NCBI RefSeq assembly: GCF_024362485.1
Contig: NZ_CP101456.1
Span: forward strand, 1,116,001-1,180,000
From: Natronobeatus ordinarius
Lineage (GTDB): Archaea; Halobacteriota; Halobacteria; Halobacteriales; Natrialbaceae
Direction: 5' to 3'
Length of the DNA: 64,000 nucleotides
Of the stretch, positions 16,687 to 28,791 are shown one piece after another. The position numbers were made by a program, and so were the translations under genes. The notes under the pieces were generated by a model, which was not told the DNA's origin, searched no databases, and saw only the letters and a list, made by a program, of their open reading frames with translations. How positions within the stretch are numbered: position 1 is the stretch's first letter; every line of letters begins with the position of its first letter.

Positions 16687-18158
<1,472 letters not shown>

Positions 18159-18239
18159 ACAGAACGGGACCACCCCGACGAGGGTGGCCCACCACGTCCG
18201 CGTCCGACCGACCGCCGATCAGGCCGATCGGGCACCTTT

Positions 18240-18256
18240 GAACTGTCGAGGCTAAC
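18240..18256 (+). other. 3' strand of the 16S rRNA processing stem
   Basis: GAACTGTCGAGGCTAAC pairs perfectly with 16558-16574 upstream of 16S. It lies in the internal spacer 40 bases before tRNA-Ala. Confidence 0.8.
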
Positions 18257-18295
18257 GTTTACTCTCCGTCCCAGCTCCGATGCTGGAACGGGGAT

Positions 18296-18367
18296 GGGCC
18301 CATAGCTCAGTGGGAGAGTGCCTCCTTTGCAAGGAGGATGCCCTGGGTTCGAATCCCAGTGGGTCCA
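18296..18367 (+). tRNA. tRNA-Ala (UGC)
   Basis: A full cloverleaf: acceptor GGGCCCA/TGGGTCC with discriminator A, D-arm GCTCAGTGGGAGAGT, anticodon stem CCTCC/GGAGG with loop TTTGCAA (anticodon TGC), and T-arm CTGGG TTCGAAT CCCAG. CCA is not encoded. It sits in the 16S-23S spacer, the usual archaeal place. Confidence 0.96.
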
Positions 18368-18503
18368 TGACACGGTGCGATCGAACCGTGCCCCTTAAGT
18401 GGGGGACGGCGCTACGATCAAACCGGAAGAAACCGATGCACCACCCCGCGCAAGTGCGGGTGGGAAGGGTCAATGCACGCTGCGTCTACAGCGCTGCAAA
18501 TGA

Positions 18504-18566
18504 GACCGTGTGTACGTGTAGTCCAGGCGTCCACTGGACCCGTTCCCGGGTCACAATTACAGATCC
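18504..18566 (+). other. 5' strand of the 23S rRNA processing stem
   Basis: TACGTGTAGTCCAG, CTGGACCCGTT, CGGGTCACA and CAGATCC occur here in order. Their inverted complements are found in reverse order at about 21498-21570, after 23S. The interruptions fit a bulge-helix-bulge processing site. Confidence 0.75.
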
Positions 18567-18572
18567 GACGAA

Positions 18573-21490
<2,918 letters not shown>

Positions 21491-21497
21491 TATTCAT

Positions 21498-21570
21498 GGA
21501 TCTGCACTGTGACCCGTTTGAACGGGTCCAGGCGCAAACTGGACTACACGTAACATACGGTTTCAGACCA
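21498..21570 (+). other. 3' strand of the 23S rRNA processing stem
   Basis: GGATCTG, TGTGACCCG, AACGGGTCCAG and CTGGACTACACGTA are the complements, in reverse order, of the strand at 18504-18566. The stem encloses 23S. Confidence 0.75.
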
Positions 21571-21610
21571 CCGACGTTGGACGAAATCGCGGTTCGAGTC
21601 CGCGAGTCGG

Positions 21611-21732
21611 CGTTAAGGCGGCCACAGCGGCGGGGTTCCTCCCGTACCCATCCCGAACACGGCAGATAAGCCCGCCTGCGTACCGGCCAGTACTGGAGTG
21701 GGAGACCCTCTGGGAACGTCGGTTCGTCGCCT
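21611..21732 (+). rRNA. rrf: 5S ribosomal RNA
   Basis: It starts TTAAGGCGGCCACAGCGG and contains CCCGTACCCATCCCGAACAC, the conserved loop B/C segment, and ends by pairing GTCGCCTCC with GGCGGCC. About 122 nt, the usual haloarchaeal size. No tRNA-Cys follows, although many haloarchaeal rRNA operons have one. Confidence 0.95.
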
Positions 21733-21746
21733 CCACTCATACTATC

Positions 21747-22041: not shown

Positions 22042-25000
22042 TCAGTCGTCGTCGAGGGTCGCGCCCTCGACGGCCGCTGGGCCCGGCGCACAGCCGAGCG
22101 AGCGGTGCGGACAGTACCGACAGTGATCACCAGGGGTGACGTCCTCGAAGGACGGGTCGTCGACAGCCAGGAGCGTCTCGCGGGCCGACCCCCACGAGGG
22201 GAGCGCCTCGCGAGACAGCAGCTCGACCCGCGGTCCGGCGTCGCCGACGTAGACGTAGCCGGCGCTCGAGATCGGTTCGTCGAACCGGCGCGCGGCGGCC
22301 TCGACGTAGAGCAGGAGCTGGGTCGCGTCGGCGGGATCGATCCGGTTGGCCGTCGTCTTGTAGTCGAGGACGACGAGCTCGCCGCGGGGCGTCCGTCGGA
22401 TCGAGTCGATGGAGCCGACGACCTCGCCGTCGACGCCCTCGAGGGAGTCGAGGACGAACGGGAGTTCCGCGGCCAGGGGCTCCCACTCGTGGACTGGCGC
22501 GTCGATCCCCGGCGCGCAGGCCTCGAAGTAGCGGCCGACGCAGTCGAGGACTGGCTCGCGGTAGGCGGTGTGACCACGGGCGGTCAGGTGTCTGGTCGCG
22601 GCCTCTCGCCACGCTGCTCGTGTGCGGTACTCCCGGTAAAACGCCTCCTCGGCGACGTCGTGGAAGATCGTCCCGACGATCCGCGCGCCCGGATCGCCGC
22701 CGTTCGTGATCGGATCGTCGACTGCACCCACGGCGTGGTCGAGGTAGTGTTTCCTGGCACACTCCTCGTGGGTACGCATCGCGGTGTAGCTGTGGCGAAC
22801 TGCCACCGGGAGCGGAGTCACGGCCGAGAGCGTCTCGACGGGAAACCGGACGGTGTCGCTCGAGAGTGCGCTGGGGCTTCGTCCAGCAGGCGTGTGGATG
22901 CCTTCGTCAGCGTGGTCGGCTGCGTCCGCCGCGGGGAGGAGGGTTCTGCGCCGGAGCTGGCGGCCGAGTCGGTGGACCGTCTCGATCGCCGCCCGCGTCT
23001 CGAGCGGCTCGAGTGAGCGGTCCTCGTAGCCGCCGTAGTAGGTGATCGTTCCCGGGGTCCGGCTCGCAGAGCGTGCAATCTCCTCGGTACAGTCGGCGAC
23101 GGCGTCGGGGTAGTCGTCTTGAACGCGGTCGAACGCGTCGGTGAGCGTCTCCCAGAGATCCATCCGTCGGCCAGCGACGCACCAGTCGATCTCCGACGCC
23201 AGGCACGCCTCAGCGGTCGACGTCGACAATTCTCCGTCGGCACCGTCGTAGTCGTACGCCGACCCGAACAGGAGGAGGTGGTTCTCGGCGCGGGTGAGTG
23301 CGACGTGTAACACCCGCCACTCCTCGGCGACGGTCTCTGCAGCGAGGTCGGCGAGCAGCGGCGAGTCGACCTCGTCGTCGATCGTCGCCGCGAGCAGTCG
23401 GTACCGAACGCGCTCGACGTAATCGGTTTCGACACACCACTCCTCGTCGGAGAGGTACGGGACGAGCACCGTGTCGAACTGCAGCCCCTTCGCCTGATGG
23501 ACCGTCATCACGTCGACGCGACCGGTCGACTGCGTCCCGCGTCCGTCCGTGGTCGAACTGCCCGCGAGTGCGTGCTCGAGCGCGTCGACGAACTCGGTGG
23601 TGAGTGCCGTCAGGACCGAATTGGCGTCGTAGGAGTCAGCGAATCGTTCGACCCGTTCGAGCGTCGAGCGCTCCTCGCCCGTCAGGAACCACTCGAGGCG
23701 CGTGACCTCGAGGAATCGACGGACGAACACCGAGAGCGGGAGCCCATTGTACACCGACGTGAGCGTCTCGAGGTGGGTTCGAGCTCGTTCGAGCCGGTCG
23801 GGGTCGTCGAAGTCGTTCGCGTCGGCGGCGACCAGCACGCCGTACAGCGATCGATCCCGAACGTGGAGACGTTCGAGGTCCGATTCCGACAGTCGGTACC
23901 GGTAGACGAGCACTCGTCTGAGGTGGACGTCGGCCTCCGGATCGACCAGCACTCGCAGATACGAGAGTACCGTCTGGATCCCCGGCGAGAGCTCGCCGTG
24001 GGTCGACCCGGAGCGTTCGTAGGGGATCTGCGCGCGCTCGAGCTCGGCGGCGACCGCCGCTGCGTGGCGATTCGTGCGGACGATCACCGCCAGATCGGAG
24101 AGCGACCTGGCGGGGACTCCCTCGAGTTCGCCGTTGACGAGCCGCGAGACGGTCGTTGCGACCGCTTCGGCAGTCGAGAAGCCGACCTCGTCGGTCTCTA
24201 CCTTCCCGACACGCAGCGGTGTCTCGTCCCCATCGGACACGTTCGGGGATCGGTCGAACTCTCGGAGCGTCTTCGACGACTGGCCGGCGTACGCACAGTG
24301 ATTGGTGAGATCGAGGATCTCCTGGCGGGATCGGAAGTTCAGCTCGAGCGCGACCGATTCGTGGTCATCGTATCTGGCGAGGCGCTCGAGTCCCTCGTGG
24401 TCGGTGCCACGCCAGCCGTAGATCGCCTGGTCGGTGTCGCCGATCGCGAACAGGTCCGGGCGGTCCGGGCCCGCGGTCAGGCGCGTCACGAGGGAAAACT
24501 GCGTCGGATCGGTGTCCTGGAACTCGTCGCAGTAGACCTGCTCCCAGCGGCCCGTGAGTTCGTCGGCGACGCGGTCGTCCTCGAGCAACCGGGTCGCCGT
24601 CCGCACGAGTTCGTCGAAGTCGACGGTCCGGTCGCGCTCGAGCATCGCCCGGTAGTCGGCGTAGACGTCGGTGTAGTGGCGCGCCAGCCGGAGAAACTCG
24701 AGGGAGTGATCGAGCCGGCCAACGGGCGTCTGCTCGATCCGTCCGGTCGCGCCGCCCCGGATCTCGTTGCAAAAGAGCGCCCGTGGGAGGTGTTTCGTCG
24801 TCGGTTCCTCGAGCGAGAGCGCCTCGTGGACGTTCGTCACACACCGTTGCAGCGTCCGGAAGTAGCTCGAGACGTCCCGGACGACGGGGTCGTCGTGGAA
24901 CTCGTCGGGTGCCTCGGCGACTTTCTCTCGGCAGTAGGTGAGCAGTTTTCCGTACTCGACGAGCGACTCGCGGGCCGACTTGAGGTGTTCGGGCCGGTTG

Positions 25001-25623
25001 AAGTATCGGAGGGCCTCGTTGTCGAACGACAGCTGCTCGTCCGCCCGCCGCCTGAGCCGGAGGACGAGCCCACCGAGGAGTTCGAGCGTTCGCGCGTCGG
25101 GGAGCCGGTCGTCGAGCGTCTCGGGGTCGACGTCCGTTCGACTCATCGTGGCGACGAATCGGTCGACGTCGGCGGCGAGGTCGGCCGCGGTGCCGTCGCC
25201 CTGTGTCGAGGCGAAGCCGTAGTCGTTCTCCTCGAGCAGTCGGCGGACGAGCCGTCGGCGGGCCCGTTCGGTGACGACGTCGAACTCGGGGGAGCGGCCG
25301 AGATAGTAGGCGTACTCGCGGACGAGCCGGTGACAGAAGGAGTGGTAGGTGTGGACGTCGATCTCGGCAGCCTCGTCGGGTCCGAGGCGGTCGGCGATCG
25401 CCTCGCGGACGTTTGACGCCGCCTCGTTCGCGAACGTCAACACGAGCACGTCCTCGGGGTCGACGTCGCCGCGCTCGATGGCGCGCTCGATCCGCAGGAT
25501 CATCGTCGTCGTCTTTCCCGTCCCCGCCCCGGCGTCGACGGAGATGCAGGCGGCCCGGCTCTCGAGGGCGGCCGGCTGGTTTCCTCGCGGCTCGATCGGG
25601 TCTCGGTCCCCGTCGTCAGCCAT
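22042..25623 (-). CDS. AddA/RecB-like UvrD-family helicase fused to a Cas4-type Fe-S nuclease
   Basis: The 1193-residue protein has all SF1A helicase motifs: Q16 (Q-motif), Walker A AGAGTGKTT (31-39), motif Ia LTFANEAA, motif II DEFQD (366-370), motif III GDTDQAIYGWRG (395-406), motif IV LELNFRSRQEI, motif V VDVMTVHQAKGLQFD and motif VI LHVALTRAENHLLLF. The last 200 residues form a PD-(D/E)XK nuclease (VGSIDSIRRT, VVLDYKTT, QLLLYVEAA) with four Cys for a [4Fe-4S] cluster (ECARKHY and CRYCPHRSLGC). This is the AddA/RecB plan. The ATG at 25623 overlaps the upstream gene by 8 bases. It likely unwinds and resects broken DNA ends. Confidence 0.85.
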   Translation of the reverse strand: MADDGDRDPIEPRGNQPAALESRAACISVDAGAGTGKTTTMILRIERAIERGDVDPEDVLVLTFANEAASNVREAIADRLGPDEAAEIDVHTYHSFCHRLVREYAYYLGRSPEFDVVTERARRRLVRRLLEENDYGFASTQGDGTAADLAADVDRFVATMSRTDVDPETLDDRLPDARTLELLGGLVLRLRRRADEQLSFDNEALRYFNRPEHLKSARESLVEYGKLLTYCREKVAEAPDEFHDDPVVRDVSSYFRTLQRCVTNVHEALSLEEPTTKHLPRALFCNEIRGGATGRIEQTPVGRLDHSLEFLRLARHYTDVYADYRAMLERDRTVDFDELVRTATRLLEDDRVADELTGRWEQVYCDEFQDTDPTQFSLVTRLTAGPDRPDLFAIGDTDQAIYGWRGTDHEGLERLARYDDHESVALELNFRSRQEILDLTNHCAYAGQSSKTLREFDRSPNVSDGDETPLRVGKVETDEVGFSTAEAVATTVSRLVNGELEGVPARSLSDLAVIVRTNRHAAAVAAELERAQIPYERSGSTHGELSPGIQTVLSYLRVLVDPEADVHLRRVLVYRYRLSESDLERLHVRDRSLYGVLVAADANDFDDPDRLERARTHLETLTSVYNGLPLSVFVRRFLEVTRLEWFLTGEERSTLERVERFADSYDANSVLTALTTEFVDALEHALAGSSTTDGRGTQSTGRVDVMTVHQAKGLQFDTVLVPYLSDEEWCVETDYVERVRYRLLAATIDDEVDSPLLADLAAETVAEEWRVLHVALTRAENHLLLFGSAYDYDGADGELSTSTAEACLASEIDWCVAGRRMDLWETLTDAFDRVQDDYPDAVADCTEEIARSASRTPGTITYYGGYEDRSLEPLETRAAIETVHRLGRQLRRRTLLPAADAADHADEGIHTPAGRSPSALSSDTVRFPVETLSAVTPLPVAVRHSYTAMRTHEECARKHYLDHAVGAVDDPITNGGDPGARIVGTIFHDVAEEAFYREYRTRAAWREAATRHLTARGHTAYREPVLDCVGRYFEACAPGIDAPVHEWEPLAAELPFVLDSLEGVDGEVVGSIDSIRRTPRGELVVLDYKTTANRIDPADATQLLLYVEAAARRFDEPISSAGYVYVGDAGPRVELLSREALPSWGSARETLLAVDDPSFEDVTPGDHCRYCPHRSLGCAPGPAAVEGATLDDD

Positions 25624-26638
25624 CGAACCGCACCTCCGCGGCCACGTGGTCCGCACAGCCGACGGCGTACGCACAGCCCGGACAGCTCCGAGCCGAAATT
25701 CGATCCCAGGCCGGGCCCGGATCGAACTCGCCCGGGACGATCGCGGCGAGCACCTCACGTAGTCGTCGTTCGACCGTCCGGTTTCGGTGCTCGTGAGTCA
25801 GGCCGAAGGTGTGGTGGTCGAGGAAGACGTCCGTCAGGTCGACGACCTCGAGGCTCGTCTCGACGGTCTCCCGGACCCAGTCGACCGCGTCGTTCGACCG
25901 GTCTGCGAGGGGGGCGAGAACGTACCGACAGGTCGACGCCTCGAGTTCCAGCCGGTCGCGGAGGTCGCGCAACCCCTCGAGGACGACCGCCGTCTCGAGG
26001 AGGGAGGCGACGGCGTCGGGCTCGAACCGGTCTGCGTCGGGGTCGAAGTGGTCGACGAACAGTTCGGCCACGTCGCCATCCCACTTCGAGCGGTATCGGA
26101 GGGGGCCAAGCGGCGCGAGCGTCGGCACGAACCGAACCCCCGTGATCGACGGGCCGTCCTCGAAGACGTAGTCCACCGTGGCGTCGACCGTGACCGCGGC
26201 GTTCTCGTCCTCACCTGCGTCAGGCAGCGAAACCGTCGCCGAGAGCGAAAGTGCCGGCCCGATCACGTCTCCGTCGGCCGCGTTCCGGAGTTGCGTGACG
26301 CCCCTCGCGTGGGTTGGCCCGACCGCCTCGACGTACGCCCGGATCGTCGCCTCGAGCGCGCGTCGCTCGTGTCGTCGCTGGGCCATCGAGTGGAATCGGT
26401 CGTCGCGTTCGGGCCACCGCTCCGCGAGGCGGGCGATGGCCGCGTTCGCGAGGGGGCGTGGCTCCGTCTCGCCGGTTCGGAGCGCGTCACAGATCACTGT
26501 TCGGAGGAGTTCGACCTGACGGGTCTCGACGGCCTCCTCGTCGTCGCCTGCGAGACCGTGGACGTGGGCGAACTCGTACTGCCGGGGGCAGTGCAGGTAG
26601 GCCCCGAGGCCGTCGACCGGGAGTCGACGTCCGGTCAT
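25616..26638 (-). CDS. Cas4/RecB-nuclease-like Fe-S protein with a degenerate active site
   Basis: The 340-residue protein starts LPVDGLGAYLHCPRQYEFAH and ends with CPGCAYAVGC, giving the one-plus-three Cys pattern of Fe-S PD-(D/E)XK nucleases. The place of the catalytic core reads TVDATVDYVFEDG then ITGVRFVPT. A beta-hairpin and one Asp remain, but the D-x-K pair seen in the helicase-fused nuclease (LDYK) is missing, so it is probably not catalytic. It overlaps both neighbours (4 and 8 bases) and likely is a structural subunit. Confidence 0.72.
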   Translation of the reverse strand: MTGRRLPVDGLGAYLHCPRQYEFAHVHGLAGDDEEAVETRQVELLRTVICDALRTGETEPRPLANAAIARLAERWPERDDRFHSMAQRRHERRALEATIRAYVEAVGPTHARGVTQLRNAADGDVIGPALSLSATVSLPDAGEDENAAVTVDATVDYVFEDGPSITGVRFVPTLAPLGPLRYRSKWDGDVAELFVDHFDPDADRFEPDAVASLLETAVVLEGLRDLRDRLELEASTCRYVLAPLADRSNDAVDWVRETVETSLEVVDLTDVFLDHHTFGLTHEHRNRTVERRLREVLAAIVPGEFDPGPAWDRISARSCPGCAYAVGCADHVAAEVRFDG

Positions 26639-28791
26639 CGGCGAACCTCCCCGGCGGCGAACTCGAACTGCGACCTGACGGCCTCGCGCAGGTCCTCGTC
26701 GACGTCACCGTCGAGGACGACGGCGAGCTCCTCGAACAGCGCTTCCGTCTCGACGAGGTCGACCTCGCCGCCGGTGCTTGCCTCCCCGAGGACGCGCTCG
26801 AGTTCGCCCCACGGCTGGGCGAGGGCTGCCTCGAGTGCGTTCGCTTCGCCGTAGATCCTCGCGTCCCGACCGCGCGCATCGACGTCCTCGAGGCTCACGT
26901 CCCGCCGTCGCTCGAGTCCCTTCAGATACCGTGACTCCGCGTGCGTGCGCCGGAGCCCGCCTGCCTCGCGCTCGTACGAACAGCAGTACAACCGCGAGCG
27001 GGCCGCCCGAGTTCCGATGGCGAGTTTCCGGCGGGCCCGCTCGGCGTGGTAGGCCTCGAAGGCGGTTCCGAGTTCGGCCGCCGGTGGCGCGGGCGCGAAC
27101 GTCCGTTCGACGTCGACCGGCGAAGGGTCGGTGACGGCCGGATAGTTCGGCATCGACTCGAGCCACGTTTCCGGAAAGAGTCGGGTGAGGTGGTGCTCTC
27201 CGGGGTACTGTCGCTCGACCAGATCGAGCAGGAAGACGGCTTCGCGGCTGTCGTACTTCAGGTCCGCGATCGCACAGACCGTCACGCCGCCGCGCTCGGG
27301 CCGGGTCTCGACCTCGTGGACGTACGGTGCGTCGTATTCGATCGTCCGGCGGAGCATTCTGGCCAGTCCCTCCCAGTTGGGGGCGACGACGTCGGTCTCC
27401 TCGACGAACCGGGCGATCTCGAGCACGCGCCGGACGCCGTCGAAGCTCTCGCGGGCGTCGACGGGCGCTTGCTCGGTGACGATCCGACTCTTGAGGTCGG
27501 TTCGAAGGATCCAGCGCTCGAGCGAGCGCCGGACGCTCGAGCCGGTACACGATTCGACGAGGGCGGGGGAGAAGTCGGGAACGCGAGCGGCCAGCCGGTT
27601 GCGGGCGACCTCGTGGTCCCCATCGCCGTTGTAGGCGACGAACGCGTAGAGTTCGGCGACCGCGGGGTCGTCTGCGAGCGCGGCGGTTCCGATCGTCGCC
27701 GTGGGCACGCCCGCGTTGCGGAGGCGGTCTCGAACGGTGGGAACGCGCTCGACGGTCGGGACGGCGACCGCAACGTCGTCGTATCGCCACCCCTCGTTCC
27801 GGTCGAGTAACGCCTGGATCTCCGTCGCGACCTGCCGTTCCTGCTCGCGGGTCGTCGTCGAGCGGATGCGACGTGCGGTCGCAGTCTCGGTGGACGACTC
27901 CTCGGCCGGTTCGCCGGTCGCGAGCCACCGGGTGATCGCCCGGTGGTCGGAGTTGGGGGCCGTGCGGTCGACGTCCCGGTCGGAAGCCGGGTGGGGGCCT
28001 TCGAGGACCGTCATTTCGAGGCCCGCTGCGAGGTCGTCGACCGATCCGGGTTCGACGCGGGTTCGCTCGACGCTGGCGTGGCGCTCGCCGAGACAGACCA
28101 GTTCCGCGTCGGCGGTCAGCGCGGCGAGGTAGCGCCGGTCGAGCCGGCGACACTCCTCGAACTCGAGGACGAAGACGGCGTCGAACGACGAACAGACGCG
28201 CGAGCGGAGGCCGTCGGCGTCGGCCTCGAGCAGCGCCGTCGCTCGCGGGATCACGTCGGCGCGCTCGAGGAGTCCCCGCGTTCTGAGTTCCTCGTGGAAT
28301 CGGTCGTTCATCGCGTAGAGGAAGTCGAGACACTCGTGGGGATCCTCGAGATCCTCGTGACGGATCGCCTGGCGCGTCGCCTCGAGCAACAGCTGACCCA
28401 CGTCGCGGGCGAAGCTGTCGTGCTCGCGCGCCCGCTCGAGGTAGGGCGGGATATCGCGTTTCGCTCCCGCGATCACCAGCGAGAGCAGCTCGATCCGTTC
28501 CTCGTAGGCCAGTCGATCGAGCGTCGGATCGTACTCCTCGAGCACCTTCGAGGCGTGTTCGGGCAGGGACTCGAGCCGCGGCGAGAGCGGGGTTCCGTTC
28601 GTGGATTCACAGCCGGCGAGTGCCTCGCGAACCCGCTCGAGACCGGCCGGGTGGCGTTTCAGGACGAGCACGTTCCGCGGATCGTACTCGTCGACGAGGG
28701 TGGCGTACTCGGCGGCGACGACCTCGAGGAGGTCGGGGCTGGGCTCGGGGAGGAGTTTGAGGGTCCCCTCGAGGTCCGGGGCGGCGGTCAT
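26635..28791 (-). CDS. AddB/RecC-like inactivated helicase subunit
   Basis: The 718-residue protein has no Walker A motif; the N-terminal strand reads NVLVLKRHPAGLERV. It keeps relics of SF1 helicase motifs: DAVFVLEFEECRRLDRRYL (motif II-like), AVFLLDLVERQYPGEHH (motif V-like, compare GLNEGxFP of AddB), and RRKLAIGTRAARSRLYCCSY (motif VI-like). This loss with a preserved frame is characteristic of AddB and RecC. It is the first gene of the three-gene operon; TTTAAATA at about 28822-28829 gives a near-leaderless start. A role in DNA-end recognition is inferred. Confidence 0.68.
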   Translation of the reverse strand: MTAAPDLEGTLKLLPEPSPDLLEVVAAEYATLVDEYDPRNVLVLKRHPAGLERVREALAGCESTNGTPLSPRLESLPEHASKVLEEYDPTLDRLAYEERIELLSLVIAGAKRDIPPYLERAREHDSFARDVGQLLLEATRQAIRHEDLEDPHECLDFLYAMNDRFHEELRTRGLLERADVIPRATALLEADADGLRSRVCSSFDAVFVLEFEECRRLDRRYLAALTADAELVCLGERHASVERTRVEPGSVDDLAAGLEMTVLEGPHPASDRDVDRTAPNSDHRAITRWLATGEPAEESSTETATARRIRSTTTREQERQVATEIQALLDRNEGWRYDDVAVAVPTVERVPTVRDRLRNAGVPTATIGTAALADDPAVAELYAFVAYNGDGDHEVARNRLAARVPDFSPALVESCTGSSVRRSLERWILRTDLKSRIVTEQAPVDARESFDGVRRVLEIARFVEETDVVAPNWEGLARMLRRTIEYDAPYVHEVETRPERGGVTVCAIADLKYDSREAVFLLDLVERQYPGEHHLTRLFPETWLESMPNYPAVTDPSPVDVERTFAPAPPAAELGTAFEAYHAERARRKLAIGTRAARSRLYCCSYEREAGGLRRTHAESRYLKGLERRRDVSLEDVDARGRDARIYGEANALEAALAQPWGELERVLGEASTGGEVDLVETEALFEELAVVLDGDVDEDLREAVRSQFEFAAGEVRR

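Follow-up and report, generated by a model that had tools for sequence, protein, structure and literature searches.

A three-gene haloarchaeal operon as a probable split AddAB-type helicase-nuclease

Gene content and conservation of the locus

The window analyzed here is a 64,000-nucleotide (nt) stretch of a haloarchaeal chromosome (G000:C1:1116001-1180000), and our subject is a run of three minus-strand genes at positions 22042-28791, B1, B2 and A, that probably encodes a split AddAB-type helicase-nuclease in which B1 and B2 jointly make up one AddB and A is the AddA-like partner. B1 (28791-26635) encodes 718 amino acids (aa) and is the predicted AddB-like N-terminal subunit with an inactive helicase fold. 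B2 (26638-25616, 340 aa) is best read as the detached C-terminal iron-sulfur (Fe-S) nuclease-like domain of AddB, catalytically degenerate, whereas A (25623-22042, 1193 aa) joins a superfamily 1A (SF1A, UvrD-like) helicase and an Fe-S PD-(D/E)xK nuclease, the latter intact. An earlier note, made from the sequence alone, had described three overlapping genes here. All three are present, with a 4-nt stop-start overlap between B1 and B2 (26635..26638, minus strand, in sequence coordinates, as for the next) and an 8-nt overlap between B2 and A (25616..25623, minus strand). A listed 1238-aa frame for A opens at an upstream GTG, but the ATG at 25623 agrees with the overlap in relatives.

Pfam recognizes UvrD (E=4e-52), UvrD_C and PDDEXK_1 (E=1e-21) in A, all above cut-off, and PDDEXK_1 in B2 (E=1.3e-6; 29 bits against a cut-off of 22), which also has four cysteines. 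B1 has no Pfam match above cut-off. Neither the window operon nor those annotated relatives that were examined contain a gene of the RecD type, the second active SF1B motor of RecBCD.

A scan of GTDB genomes, with a B1 alignment as query, gave 80 named loci, all of them haloarchaeal. The earlier note had named a lack of co-conservation as grounds for dropping its proposal; B1, B2 and A instead stand in one order and on one strand in all of the testable loci (79/79), those without an intervening contig end. Among 79 relatives, 73 have a B1-B2 overlap of either 4 or 8 nt, and B2 overlaps A in nearly all. The triad is not a chance arrangement, given its repeated occurrence at some 80 named loci of haloarchaea. 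A sequencing or annotation artefact was rejected as the cause of the split: ~80 haloarchaeal genomes have it, the overlaps are short, and none of these genomes was seen to carry a fused B1-B2 copy. Among 295 genomes of the phylum, full-length B1 was restricted to the window's own order, and no B1 relative was found in a phage collection. Most genomes of the same family, the Natrialbaceae, have B1 adjacent to B2.

Subunit folds and the two forms of B2

A B1 profile built from 48 sequences was compared with all PDB sequences. Its top match is Bacillus subtilis AddB (3u44_B, E=4.7e-8), aligned collinearly (columns 59-352 against residues 51-369), with UvrD1 and AdnA ranking after it and AdnA weak (E=0.0024). 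The AlphaFold2 model of B1 has a predicted local distance difference test score (pLDDT) of 84.8, and its highest template modeling (TM) score among the listed matches is to AddB (3u4q_B, 0.66), ahead of UvrD (0.48-0.56) and RecC (0.46). Walker A is missing in 98 of 99 B1 rows, the sole pattern match being the chance-like ADTSSGKS. The model and the profile search together indicate that B1 has the AddB-like fold predicted for it, homologous to the SF1 helicase-fold B subunit of AddAB. The earlier note had proposed an AddB-like protein lacking Walker A and would have given it up had models of the 718-aa protein lacked such a fold; the TM-score of 0.66 to AddB upholds it. Public plasmid records deposit B1 homologues as 'DNA helicase UvrD' despite the absent Walker A.

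The structure model of B2 (pLDDT 91) finds AddB as its best Foldseek match (4cej_B, E=1.3e-4), followed by AdnA and then AddB again, with Cas4 at 0.03-1.6. Its cysteines are C17, C319, C322 and C328, the last three forming a C-X2-C-X5-C motif at the C-terminal end. The point of the split is also informative: the 718 residues of B1 plus Cys 17 of B2 give position 735, and the first cysteine of an unsplit archaeal AddB (P0004) lies at ~740. The B2 profile gave only spurious matches against PDB sequences. Since the profile-profile alignment of B2 to the fused AddB is weak, the assignment of B2 rests on its fold, cysteine pattern, operon position and PDDEXK_1 match.

The unsplit form comes from a two-gene addB-addA pair in three genomes (L161, L162 and L165) that share the window's phylum but not its order and that we guess are probably Methanomicrobiales. 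An AddB of about 1050 aa without Walker A (P0004, 1052 aa) is followed by a 1080-aa AddA. The fused B matches AddB families with E to 8e-21, its A matches AddA with E=4e-106, and the B1 profile aligns to fused AddB residues 15-366 (E=4.6e-9). Given this fused archaeal form and the B1 and B2 alignments, the order addB(N)-addB(C)-addA corresponds to addB-addA split at a domain boundary, with B2 as its own gene at the junction of helicase and nuclease.

Subunit A is conserved throughout. Walker A and DYK are each present in 93 of 93 relatives, and H988, D1073, D1087, K1089, Q1102, Y1106, C955, C1168, C1171 and C1178 are invariant. Its profile matches AdnB (E=1e-65), AddA and RecB, in keeping with the A subunit of AddAB, in which an SF1A helicase and a RecB-type nuclease are joined. 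The earlier note's full UvrD helicase joined to an Fe-S nuclease is thus borne out by the Pfam domains and intact residues.

The B2 alignment (97 rows, a few being one locus from two collections) separates two forms. In the 36 active rows the catalytic histidine is present in 35, the two aspartates, lysine, glutamine and tyrosine in all 36, and one cysteine is missing in one row. In the 61 inactive, or dead, rows, which include the window, the histidine, second aspartate, lysine, and the glutamine and tyrosine of QxxxY are replaced and only the first aspartate is kept. Five of the six PD-(D/E)xK residues are therefore lost in 61/61, whereas C17, C319, C322 and C328 are retained in 61/61. Subunit A keeps its catalytic residues and four cysteines in both clades. 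In a tree of A, a single branch separates the dead rows from all others (Shimodaira-Hasegawa-like approximate likelihood-ratio test (SH-aLRT) 100, from a quick method that gave long-branch warnings). Because the fused AddB has an intact site, a single inactivation of B2 is the simplest account. The ratio of nonsynonymous to synonymous substitution (dN/dS) for B2 is 0.16-0.34 in close pairs, slightly higher than for B1 and A, and the sequences indicate that the Fe-S cysteines of the dead clade are under purifying selection.

Several observations weigh against assigning the locus to AddAB. By Foldseek E-value B1 is level between UvrD and AddB (2e-21 versus 1.5e-20), and AddB is ahead in TM-score and profile search only. 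The alignment of B2 to the fused AddB by hhalign covers just the N-terminal 46 columns, which surround the first cysteine (E=9e-4, probability 22). Scores fall far under the curated NCBIfam addA and addB cut-offs: A reaches 141.5 against 707.65 for addA_Gpos, and B1 has no addB match in NCBIfam, which places the proteins outside these equivalogs. The nuclease of A has four cysteines, which bacterial AddA is not known to carry. Finally, we infer the B1-B2-A complex, the structures having been predicted for monomers.

Relation to known systems and genomic context

The earlier note had seen AddAB/RecBCD-like logic with one inactive helicase subunit, and the pairing of an inactive helicase-fold B1 with the UvrD-nuclease A fits it. 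Like bacterial AddAB (B. subtilis; 3u44, 3u4q and 4cej), the locus combines an AddB-like helicase-fold subunit, an AddA-like helicase-nuclease and an Fe-S nuclease-like domain with a C-terminal C-X2-C-X5-C, encoded by adjacent genes, B then A. Unlike it, haloarchaeal AddB occupies two genes, the Fe-S nuclease domain being outside the B1 polypeptide in all loci; B1 lacks Walker A; A also has four cysteines; and the B nuclease is dead in the window clade, so that A and B sites are both intact only in the sister clade. In B. subtilis AddB, F68 and F210 bind Chi and E129 is a latch residue (PMC4824097). B1 aligns with the same residue at E129 and F210, whereas F68 of the Chi locus, and R70 and W73 as well, are replaced.

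By analogy, the locus resembles RecBCD in its non-motor helicase-fold subunit with an inactivated nuclease-like domain, as in RecC (PMC1185551), and in having one nuclease, located in the motor subunit. However, RecC is a single polypeptide without even the metal ligands (PMC1185551), whereas B2 keeps its Fe-S ligands; the haloarchaeal locus has no RecD-type second motor; and B1 is nearer AddB than RecC (TM-score 0.66 versus 0.46). Mycobacterial AdnAB shares a dead-motor subunit, an AdnB that the A profile matches (E=1e-65) and an AdnA that B2 resembles structurally, but it consists of two subunits that each fuse motor-like and nuclease domains, whereas B1 has no nuclease domain and its sequence similarity to AdnA is weak (E=0.0024). 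The methanogen-type fused AddAB is likewise archaeal, with addB-addA order, a B without Walker A and an Fe-S C-terminal domain; it differs in its unsplit AddB of about 1050 aa, its intact DYKTG site and an A that is closer to bacterial AddA than haloarchaeal A is. The domain layout of A is that of the UvrD-Cas4 fusion family, described as stand-alone or in varied contexts (PMC5704561), yet A is always partnered by B1 and B2.

AddAB in the strict sense has a single-polypeptide B and two active nucleases, and curated cut-offs are not reached here, so the triad lies outside it; we class it as a novel AddAB variant, AddAB/RecBC-like in its predicted working. We found no account of the B1-B2-A operon in the archaeal AddAB literature among open-licence papers. 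The degenerate B2 active site, the unsplit archaeal AddAB and a defence-linked sister clade go beyond the earlier note.

The two clades also differ in their surroundings, for which flanks of up to 8 kb were examined, making the context counts lower bounds. Dead-clade operons of Natrialbaceae usually have a divergent CBS-domain gene on one side and a NUDIX gene on the other, as is typical of a chromosomal locus passed on vertically, and 27 of 37 sampled genomes of this family carry one. Active-clade operons are scattered across several haloarchaeal families and plasmids. Both forms occur together in Natribaculum breve and Natronolimnohabitans innermongolicus. In the window, a 16S-tRNA-23S-5S ribosomal RNA (rRNA) operon at 16687-21735 separates A from the NUDIX gene, unlike the closest relative (L099), where NUDIX directly follows A. 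The active-clade operons of L113, L123, L125 and L126 finish next to an rRNA operon that includes tRNA-Cys, at the 3' end of the latter.

In at least 7 of 27 active-clade loci, versus 0 of 47 dead-clade loci, a Piwi-domain prokaryotic Argonaute (pAgo) gene is followed by a phospholipase D (PLD) gene whose end lies a few bases ahead of B1. This five-gene operon, pAgo (Piwi)-PLD-B1-B2-A with intact B2, is found at L128:3097-14457 and in L106, L109, L112, L118, L123 and L125, and on plasmid NZ_CP100464.1 (L166:4151-15421). One deposited record gives the order as Piwi, phospholipase D, DNA helicase UvrD, PD-(D/E)XK nuclease and ATP-dependent DNA helicase. The pAgo-PLD pair is the published haloarchaeal APAP defence system (PMC11442185), whose authors mention a helicase gene neighboring some pAgo-PLD operons; we found no description there of these genes as an AddAB-type unit. 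The window copy has no pAgo neighbor; the gene order of the sister operons suggests a link between the AddAB-like unit with intact B2 and APAP Argonaute defence. Such operons would supply a concrete partner for Argonaute defence, so far noted as a neighboring helicase gene only. TmtA-like, AAA-DUF4143 and Mrr genes also neighbor active-clade operons, each with 0/47 in dead-clade loci. A 1644-aa TmtA-like protein is encoded divergently upstream of B1-B2-A in four genomes (L113:2040-6971, L115, L126 and L130) and may be an alternative defence partner.

Predicted function and other nuclease genes

The Fe-S cluster of AddAB is said, in the title of work by Yeeles from 2009, to be needed for binding broken ends. 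By analogy, the haloarchaeal complex would bind a double-strand end with the B2 Fe-S fold helping to grip it, and A, as sole motor, would pull the 3'-ended strand with 3'-to-5' polarity. Chi recognition in bacterial AddAB falls to the N-terminal region of AddB, which meets the 3' strand before the AddA nuclease does (PMC4027173). B1 may similarly split the duplex and scan the 3'-ended strand, with a possible gating role and conceivably a response to a recombination hotspot, while the A nuclease would cut the emerging DNA. In the window lineage A would be the only intact nuclease as well as the only motor; with B2 dead, cutting of the 5' strand would require either that it be fed to A, as happens in RecBCD, or that a different enzyme do the work. 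The mobile cassettes, with two intact nucleases, would be suited to degrading invader DNA after a partner's cut, and those downstream of pAgo-PLD probably unwind and degrade the cut DNA.

We tentatively propose two roles: a mobile two-nuclease cassette that finishes invader DNA cut by pAgo-PLD-like partners, and a fixed Natrialbaceae set, its B nuclease inactivated once and its Fe-S ligands kept, for recombination end processing. The latter would be the archaeal counterpart of the change from AddB to RecC, seen at a stage when the cluster persists. All copies could instead serve primarily in antiviral defence by degrading invader DNA, in which case the one in the window would be a domesticated, fixed defence unit and not an enzyme of recombinational repair. 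The sister clade's defence islands and plasmids, with their pAgo-PLD, TmtA-like, Mrr and AAA-DUF4143 neighbors, agree with this, and a NurA-family protein in the window genome could serve resection. The window clade, however, has such neighbors in 0/47 loci, mostly occupies the one conserved CBS/NUDIX site, and is confined to yet widespread in Natrialbaceae, much like a housekeeping gene, and we consider this primarily antiviral reading rather unlikely. That the window-clade B2 is a decaying relic of the AddB nuclease domain with no present role would account for an active site lost in every member, but is hardly credible for a protein with four invariant cysteines (61/61), the dN/dS values above, tight overlaps with both neighbors and no instance of deletion.

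The earlier note had read B2 as a small Cas4-like Fe-S protein forming a new third subunit foreign to the bacterial complexes. The count of three genes stands, but B2 appears to be the AddB C-terminal domain instead. In favor of a genuine Cas4-type subunit, separately acquired and joined to an AddAB-like pair, Cas4 has its fold and Fe-S pattern in common with the AddB nuclease domain, and PADLOC Cas4 models do match active-clade B2 at 8e-9. We nevertheless consider such a subunit improbable, and rejected it because of the ranking of folds, the position of the split and the loss of the active site. The best structural matches of B2 are AddB and AdnA, not Cas4; B1 stops where the AddB nuclease domain begins, so that, B2 apart, the B subunit would lack a nuclease domain altogether; and window B2 (P0002) has no Cas4 family match in NCBIfam or PADLOC and, although it keeps the four Fe-S cysteines, lacks the catalytic residues of a Cas4 site.

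Archaeal end resection is usually ascribed to Mre11-Rad50 and HerA-NurA. An AddAB-type machine as widespread among haloarchaea as read here would give archaea a further route, of bacterial style, that could be tested in hosts amenable to culture and transformation, and a dead B2 with Fe-S ligands would separate the cluster's structural role from catalysis, a question from work on bacterial AddAB. The idea that the locus replaces a missing NurA was unsupported, as a NurA-family protein (PF09376) is encoded at G000:C1:927109-928059 and turned up in 29 of the 31 genomes that were searched. According to PMC7776575, Haloferax volcanii lacks both HerA and NurA; contrary to this, the NurA-family protein was also found in our H. 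volcanii control genome.

The window genome encodes further helicase-nucleases. A second AddAB-like pair lies between Fic-like and helix-turn-helix (HTH) genes at about G000:C1 3526068-3531595 (L032:2069-7596), where the gene for an 862-aa protein, with an intact PD-(D/E)xK nuclease at its end, overlaps that for a 994-aa UvrD-nuclease. Profile comparison gave no detectable homology to B1 or B2, so the pair was not taken as a paralogue of the B1-B2-A operon. A Dna2-like protein, with an N-terminal Fe-S Cas4-type nuclease fused to an SF1 helicase, is encoded at about G000:C1 1024725-1027508 (L031:1726-4509).

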